Of a DNA stretch of 64,000 nucleotides, positions 32,692 through 34,566 are shown piece after piece. A model generated the notes under the pieces. The model was not told the origin of the DNA, did no database searches, and saw only the letters and a list, made by a program, of their open reading frames with translations. The position numbers and the translations under genes are program-made. This stretch comes from Mammaliicoccus vitulinus (lineage in GTDB: Bacteria; Bacillota; Bacilli; Staphylococcales; Staphylococcaceae): assembly GCF_029024305.1 (NCBI RefSeq), contig NZ_CP118974.1:1426001-1490000 (forward strand), given 5' to 3'. Position 1 is the first letter of the stretch; each line of letters starts with the position of its first letter.

Positions 32692-32693
32692 TG

Positions 32694-32732
32694 AAAAGCA
32701 TTCACTCAGTTATATTTTGAGTGGATGCTTTT
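32694..32732 (+). terminator. Terminator downstream of the permease
   Basis: Arms AAAAGCAT-CACTCA and TGAGTG-ATGCTTTT. Confidence 0.88.
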
Positions 32733-32841
32733 CTTATTTTTTTATTTATGCACTTATAATTTAGTGATGAACTTTTTCATATGGCATCATATATAGTATA
32801 ATAAACATTAATAATGAATATTTAACAAAGAAGGTGTAATA

Positions 32842-33156
32842 ATGGCTGGTCAAACTAATTTATTTGATGACGTTATGGAACAAGATGAGCGCTTTGTGAT
32901 TGTTGTACAAAGTATTTATGATACAAATGCTCAACTCGTCAAAAAAACATTAAGAGAATATACAAGTTTAACAAGAGAACAGATGCAATCCTTATTTGAT
33001 CATCTTAAAGATTTATATTTAACTGAACCTTTTGAGGAGAACCAAGCATTCTTTGATATTACTGTTTATACAAATCAAGACTATGCAGCTGACCAAATTT
33101 ATGCGCATATTAAAAGAAAAAAACATAGTCACGAATGGACGCATACAAGTAAATAA
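32842..33156 (+). CDS. Uncharacterised 104-residue protein, operon partner of the PRTase-like gene
   Basis: I do not recognise this protein. It is soluble, acidic in its N-terminal half (NLFDDVMEQDERF) and basic at the end (HIKRKKHSHEW), with no signal peptide or membrane segment. The start ATG at 32842 has AAGAAGGTG upstream. The next gene begins 12 bases after its stop with its own strong ribosome site, so the two are almost certainly co-transcribed and probably work together. Confidence 0.75.
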   Translation: MAGQTNLFDDVMEQDERFVIVVQSIYDTNAQLVKKTLREYTSLTREQMQSLFDHLKDLYLTEPFEENQAFFDITVYTNQDYAADQIYAHIKRKKHSHEWTHTSK

Positions 33157-33168
33157 AGGAGTAATGAT

Positions 33169-34566
33169 ATGTCCCACGTAAGCAAAGTTTTTCCTTTAGA
33201 TAACGAAAAGCAAGTTGAAGTAAAAGTCGTTAAAAATAGATTTGATTTTGAAATTGATGAAATGTTGGCAATTACACAAGAAGAAAATTCTGAATTTCCT
33301 TTTATTCCTGTTTCACCTTGTTTAGGTTATTCTAGAGGACTTTACCCGGAACATCCTTTACTTATTGGTTTATTATTAGGTTTTTTATACCATGAATCTT
33401 TAACTGGTGAAACAGATGAACGCATTCATAGTATTGCGAAAGCAATCAATAGTAAAAATCGCGGTAAAATGATTCAAGCATTAAATATAATAGAGGCAAA
33501 TAAACTCGGTCACTACCCACCCACTCGTTTCATTGGATTAAGCGAACGTGCTGTTAATTTAGGCCAATCAATATTTAGTTTATTTGAAGATGAAGTTATG
33601 TTTTTAGCCTCTACAAGAGATAAAATCATATCACATCCACCTTTGTTAGATCATAAAGATATCGTTGATCCACTAGAACGTTTATTCTTTTATACAAAAG
33701 ATAAAGATTTCTTTGATAACGACGAACGTATTGCTATTATTGACAACCATTTATTAAATGGTAATTCTGTCTTAAACCTTATTAAAAAGATTTATGATAA
33801 ATACCCTGAAAGAGAAACGTTTACTGTATTAACACCGATAGATTTAAGATCATCAAGTGTTAAAGAATCTTTTTCTAGCTTAGAAAAATCTTTGAATATT
33901 AAAATTAATATTATATCGCTCATGACTTTTGATGTTGAAGTTCAAGAAATAGAGCATGCAACCGAAGATTTAATACAAAACGAATTTTTAGAAAATCAAC
34001 ATCAAGAAACTAAAGTACAATATCATTCTTTTAGAAATGTTATTAATGATCATTTCATCGTAAAAGCACAAAATATGTTACGAGATGAAACGATTCATGA
34101 TAATCCATATTTCATTTCAACAGGTAGATTTACATTGAATGGCAAAGAACAACAAACTTCTGAAGCGTTGTTTCAGCGTATGGGAGAGTTGTTAAATGAT
34201 TTACTAGATGATTCACCGAAGCTCGTTATTGGCGTTGGTGAGTTCTTGTATGCGCCTCTCCAGATTGCTCGTTATTTACCTGGCAAAGATGTATATGTGC
34301 AAGGAACAACAAGATTTAATTTTGATTCAAGTACTTTAAAACACTCTAATAAAAAAATAAGCTTTATGTCTCCACTCGAAAGAACGATCACACATTATTT
34401 ATATAATTTAGATATAGATCAATATGATGAAATCATTGTTTTTGTAGAAAGATTACGACATAAAACTGAAATTGATGATTTAGTACAACAGTTAAAAATA
34501 CTCGGTGCTAAGTCTATACTCGTTATTGAAATGACTTCAATTTCATTTAATGAAGACCGATATTGA
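33169..34566 (+). CDS. Divergent phosphoribosyltransferase-like/TRSP-domain (StiP-type) protein
   Basis: Cytoplasmic protein of 465 residues. The middle (about 113-230) resembles the phosphoribosyltransferase domain of tellurite/stress (Ter) operon proteins: GHYPPTRFIGLSERAVNLGQ, FLASTRDKI, and a PRPP-loop equivalent IIDNHLLNGNSVLNLI (190-205). The C-terminal part matches the TRSP-type region: TGRF (318-321), LVIGVGEFLYAPLQIARYL (352-370) and VYVQGTTR (375-382). Key residues are changed: the usual VDDE-TTG is IDNHLLNG, and the usual E-HSH motif is DHKDIVDP. It may be catalytically altered. Family placement is from memory of the motifs and is moderate. Confidence 0.6.
   Translation: MSHVSKVFPLDNEKQVEVKVVKNRFDFEIDEMLAITQEENSEFPFIPVSPCLGYSRGLYPEHPLLIGLLLGFLYHESLTGETDERIHSIAKAINSKNRGKMIQALNIIEANKLGHYPPTRFIGLSERAVNLGQSIFSLFEDEVMFLASTRDKIISHPPLLDHKDIVDPLERLFFYTKDKDFFDNDERIAIIDNHLLNGNSVLNLIKKIYDKYPERETFTVLTPIDLRSSSVKESFSSLEKSLNIKINIISLMTFDVEVQEIEHATEDLIQNEFLENQHQETKVQYHSFRNVINDHFIVKAQNMLRDETIHDNPYFISTGRFTLNGKEQQTSEALFQRMGELLNDLLDDSPKLVIGVGEFLYAPLQIARYLPGKDVYVQGTTRFNFDSSTLKHSNKKISFMSPLERTITHYLYNLDIDQYDEIIVFVERLRHKTEIDDLVQQLKILGAKSILVIEMTSISFNEDRY

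Follow-up and report, generated by a model that had tools for sequence, protein, structure and literature searches.

A divergent PRTase_2–TRSP protein encoded behind an older Staphylococcales gene in Mammaliicoccus

INTRODUCTION

The 64 kb window of Mammaliicoccus vitulinus DNA analysed here (the whole stretch, numbered from its first letter, with all features below on the + strand) carries, 3′ of lysP, two adjoining genes for proteins of 104 and 465 amino acids, termed P1 and P2. It raises the question of what a protein resembling the PRTases (phosphoribosyltransferases) of Ter operons is doing in such a setting. The initial annotation called P2 a divergent ‘StiP/TRSP’ PRTase-like protein with key residues replaced, paired it with an unfamiliar partner away from any Ter genes, and suggested a reduced or repurposed stress system. 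In the one canonical Ter operon that we read, the genes encode TerD, TerC, a C–C bond lyase, the PRTase–TRSP protein, StiP–PELOTA, a HAD-like protein, YceG and TelA. To our knowledge, neither a product nor a role has been determined for the PRTase–TRSP protein. One paper describes the Ter system as using PRTases to make a signal of nucleoside or nucleotide type (PMC7824862).

RESULTS

Layout of the two-gene unit

Both open reading frames lie where the initial annotation had placed them, P1 at 32842–33156 and P2 at 33169–34566, 12 bases apart. A terminator-like hairpin 3′ of lysP (32693–32733; a 17-pair stem and then a T run) separates that gene from the unit, and another with a 19-pair stem and a T-rich tail follows P2 (34580–34621); the region thus has two such sites, where shuffled sequences lead one to expect 0.5. 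Upstream of P1 is a promoter-like site, TTTTCA-17-TATAAT (32774–32802), which matches the consensus at 10 of 12 positions. As the consensus promoter scan overall gave no more sites than shuffles did, the promoter argument for the pair rests on conservation, i.e. on a CTTTTT...TATAGTATAAT block and a AAGAAGGTG ribosome-binding site that have an identical placement upstream of P1 in all eight Mammaliicoccus genomes. The P2 gene has its own AGGAG ribosome-binding site (33157–33161; AAATAAAGGAG) immediately 3′ of the P1 stop codon, and this site and the 12-base gap are the same in 8/8 genomes. Given the common promoter-like block, the short gap, the position of the ribosome-binding site and the flanking terminators, P1 and P2 are probably co-transcribed. 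Small additional open reading frames separate P2 from the HAD gene in one species (L061, 10131–11919) and lysP from P1 in a second (L064, 6896–8222), the P1–P2 junction being intact in both. No Rfam match was found in the 64 kb window.

P2 belongs to the PRTase_2–TRSP family

The family call is borne out by Pfam, which places both expected domains above their cut-offs: PRTase_2 (PF15609) at residues 40–252 (33286–33924; 75.1 bits, cut-off 28.8, E 6.6e-21) and TRSP (PF12500) at residues 318–442 (34120–34494; 74.7 bits, cut-off 25, E 7.7e-21). The TRSP part of the original label therefore stands; the StiP part does not, since StiP is a separate family (PF11202), which was absent among the Pfam matches of P2 and whose gene follows that of the PRTase_2–TRSP protein in the canonical operon, so that P2 is properly a PRTase_2–TRSP protein. 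No DNA-binding domain was recognized in P2 by Pfam, and solved structures gave no significant sequence match. The AlphaFold model of P2 (pLDDT 89, pTM 0.91) was compared with known folds, and its PRTase half matched adenine PRTase (APRT) with a Z score of 13.1 over 170 residues (rmsd 3.0), followed after the adenine PRTases by xanthine PRTase and PurR (1p4a, Z 11.3). On this model the half is predicted to have a type I PRTase fold of the adenine-PRTase kind, although the alignment used for modelling contained canonical relatives, so that the fold does not count as evidence separate from the family call.

Ter-operon PRTase_2–TRSP proteins, e.g. those of Lysinibacillus, Ureibacillus and Paenibacillus, resemble P2 in domain order, length and predicted fold, and have approx. 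23–33% identity with it and common invariants at E126, TR149–150, D192, GxGEF, TTR, YN and E427. They differ from P2 in that its catalytic motifs are replaced, it lacks Ter partners, it lies in a different operon and it is restricted to one genus. P2 is a genuine member of a known family, of which it forms an unusual and well-conserved branch. Two other family members may be recorded here. A contig labelled Arthrobacter beigongshangensis carries a Firmicute-type PRTase_2–TRSP gene with 33% identity to P2 (L112, 10001–11320), by horizontal transfer or through a contaminated or mislabelled assembly, and a Pelosinus MAG (L105) encodes a PRTase_2–TRSP protein with a long C-terminal extension, which apparently represents fusion to the product of the next gene, StiP-like by eye.

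Most catalytic motifs of the PRTase_2 domain are replaced

All of the P2 motifs quoted in the initial annotation are present, and alignment with family members likewise upholds its statement that the PRPP-loop and E-HSH residues have been replaced. In P2, VDDE..TG has become IDNHLLNG, the FEEEHSHA loop has become HKDIVDPL (DIVDPL in place of the EEHSHA motif) and TTRSP has become TTRFN, with the Ser and Pro of TTRSP changed in every genus member. The former PRPP loop (residues 187/188–200; 33727–33768) reads IAIIDNHLLNGNSV, the canonical form being VVLVDDEITTGKT. Among 103 other family members, very distant ones included, GFAETATALG, EEHSHA, VDDE..TG and TTRSP persist. Against these 103, P2 keeps 25 of 50 family-invariant positions (the genus proteins range from 44 to 50%); the family member that comes closest to it in divergence has 80%. 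GFAETAT, EEHSHA or EAHSHA, [DE]DE..TG and mostly TTRSP are present even in Clostridia members whose TRSP scores lie close to or under the P2 score, and distance alone therefore does not explain the loss of motifs from P2. In a 76-member comparison, each of the 31 changed positions other than 168 and 169 had one and the same new residue throughout the five genus sequences.

Some elements survive, namely E126, T149, R150, D192 and G198, although in M. stepanovicii an Ala replaces this last, the glycine of the PRPP-loop motif; with these residues in place, P2 may still have some phosphoribose binding or catalysis. Conservation of the former pocket within the genus is only slightly, and not significantly, above that of the rest of P2 (53 of 463 circular shifts were as high), and lends no particular support to a kept pocket.

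The losses are unevenly spread, with 14 of 35 invariant positions kept in residues 1–260 (the N-terminal and PRTase part) and 11 of 15 in TRSP. Within the genus, residues 376–456 are 80–88% invariant compared with 69% overall, and this pattern of substitution suggests that the better-kept TRSP half carries the retained function of P2. TRSP may itself represent a second unit of PRTase-like build: in the model, the PRTase core recurs with all eight of its strands and helices at an offset of approx. 232 residues, residues 351–456 (34219–34536) corresponding to residues 119–225 (33523–33843), and the invariant E126...T149-R150 is mirrored with equal spacing by E358...T381-R382. A profile comparison of the two halves was weak (P 0.002 one way and 0.06 the other).

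P2 is restricted to Mammaliicoccus and is under strong selection

The P2 gene was present in all eight Mammaliicoccus genomes and in none of 52 other Staphylococcales genomes sampled, orthologues occurring in the genus only, with identities of 92% (Mammaliicoccus fleurettii), 89% (M. sciuri), 84% (M. lentus) and 83% (M. stepanovicii). No second PRTase_2 gene above the cut-off was found in this genome, and no P2 relative was found in viral contigs. TerD (PF02342) and StiP, the two partner families searched, were absent genome-wide from 8/8 Mammaliicoccus genomes, in keeping with the earlier remark that Ter partners were missing.

In the family tree, approx. 3.8 changes per site fall on the genus stem, whose exact placement is subject to long-branch caution, and each within-genus branch has at most 0.1. 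Within the genus, P2 has dN/dS values of 0.02–0.08 (approx. 0.05), like those of lysP, thrB, hom and lysC, these values being rough since several pairs have a dS close to saturation. A long stem followed by such constraint indicates a protein that has been rewritten and then preserved, and not one that is decaying. In one genome (G007) the orthologue is split by an A-run frameshift (L064, 8550–9949), and both parts still have a dN/dS of approx. 0.035, so that the frameshift is either recent or a sequencing error; P2 is intact in the other seven species.

P1 is older than its pairing with P2

Strong matches to P1 were found in every sampled Staphylococcaceae genus and in neighbouring families, with identities outside the genus of approx. 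51–70%; a loose threshold gave matches in 53 of 60 relatives, and a 299-genome sample of the class contained none beyond the order. P1 is therefore a clear member of a 104-residue orphan family of Staphylococcales, in which a PRTase-like gene lies downstream only in Mammaliicoccus. It had no accepted match in Pfam, NCBIfam, PADLOC, PHROG or the PDB, and its model (pLDDT 82) is a fairly confident small alpha/beta protein; fold matches to Top7, kinesins and Asf1 were rejected as weak (best Z 5.5). In most other genomes of the same family examined, P1 adjoins lysP, toward the HAD-thrB-thrC-hom genes, without P2. Outside the family its neighbours were tryptophan dioxygenase/kynureninase genes, a pyrimidine nucleoside phosphorylase gene and a peroxidase gene (one case each), a variety from which gene context gives P1 no function.

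P1 is thus a separate gene, older than its pairing with P2 and spread across Staphylococcales, and the pairing is specific to Mammaliicoccus. Either P2 was added behind P1 in this genus or it was lost elsewhere, gain being the simpler reading. The two-gene unit of the initial annotation holds in all eight genomes, although its unfamiliar partner proves to be a gene of long standing in Staphylococcales, where it occurs beside lysP as well. The statement in that annotation that Staphylococcus aureus has no such pair fits its absence from all sampled genera of the same family, but P1 itself is present there. As P1 is old and lies beside lysP in genera without the PRTase, the pair is new to Mammaliicoccus rather than a Ter operon in reduced form; the word ‘repurposed’ in the initial annotation suits the strong purifying selection that followed a burst of change.

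DISCUSSION

Can P2 still carry out phosphoribosyl transfer? Loss of VDDE alone was rejected as proof of inactivity because of what the same genome encodes. The PRPP loop of its uracil PRTase (Upp), VDPMLATG, is also without the second acidic residue, that of Xpt is IDDFLANG, and a 274-residue protein, which we call PurR-like on account of length, loop and fold family rather than through a dedicated model, keeps VDD (VDDFMRAG) while belonging to a non-enzymatic family. These host loops show that the PRPP loop by itself decides nothing on catalysis. The Xpt loop (IIDDFLANG) and the single-acid loop of Upp recall IIDNHLLNG of P2, and the PRTase fold is common to all three, but the likeness noted is limited to fold and loop; the profile match places P2 in PRTase_2, and P2 carries a second domain. 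The PRT domain of PurR binds PRPP and ppGpp, has no enzymatic activity and serves regulation (PMC8789054). In Firmicute PurR, as may be the case in P2, which we infer to be non-enzymatic, the fold of an enzyme has been reused; PurR, however, has retained VDD and possesses a DNA-binding domain, whereas P2 has lost one Asp, lacks any recognizable DNA-binding domain and has a TRSP half.

We suggest the following history. P2 descends from the PRTase–TRSP enzyme of a Firmicute Ter operon, and in the ancestor of Mammaliicoccus it stood without its pathway, TerD and StiP being missing, lost most conserved residues of the PRTase site and became fixed downstream of the old gene P1. It would no longer perform the ancestral phosphoribosyl transfer, a loss which we infer because both the other motifs and the partners have gone. 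Its PRTase-fold scaffold and better-kept TRSP half may serve to bind a ligand resembling a nucleotide or phosphoribose, or else a protein, for which P1 is a candidate, and its role may be regulatory, in the way that PurR has put the PRTase pocket of an enzyme to new use. Rewritten motifs, absent Ter partners and a transcript that is probably shared with an unrelated, older gene make a new job for P2 probable. Whether that job is the one suggested by the analogy with PurR, i.e. that P2 is a retired Ter PRTase now acting as a ligand-binding or regulatory protein, seems to us an evenly balanced matter. The fuller version, in which a Ter enzyme captured by one genus would act jointly with P1 as a two-protein regulatory unit and sense a nucleotide-type signal through the retired PRTase site, we regard as improbable.

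These readings have to be weighed against others. That P1 and P2 are functionally unrelated, P2 having merely landed 3′ of a handy promoter, is a serious contender which we nevertheless hold in some doubt: every other sampled Staphylococcales genus has P1 but no P2, and relatives of P2 occur without P1, but the contiguity, gap and ribosome-binding site of the pair are kept in 8/8 genomes, even where the flanks have changed. Another reading keeps P2 an enzyme with changed chemistry, a transferase or hydrolase of PRTase fold whose replaced residues form a new active site for a new substrate. The replacements are fixed and not drifting, D192 and the NG turn resemble the Xpt loop, one acidic residue at the loop suffices for uracil PRTase and purifying selection is strong. 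On the other side, P2 has lost the family's acidic and histidine motifs, M. stepanovicii lacks the loop glycine and the genes next to P2 include no pathway partner, and we consider this reading possible but rather unlikely.

Survival of a Ter-like stress system in reduced form would accord with the descent of P2 from Ter-operon proteins, but is quite improbable in a genus without TerD or StiP and with the putative PRTase active site rewritten. Decay of a remnant of a lost Ter operon, to which the loss of motifs and the frameshifted G007 copy might point, is very improbable indeed for a protein that is constrained like neighbouring housekeeping genes, is intact in the seven other species and still shows constraint in both parts of its one split copy.

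P2, without its catalytic motifs and pathway, is still strongly selected, and so sets the residues on which chemistry depends in the PRTase_2–TRSP family apart from those that folding or partner binding requires. Its pairing with P1 provides, in addition, a lead to the function of a conserved and unannotated protein that is found across the staphylococci.
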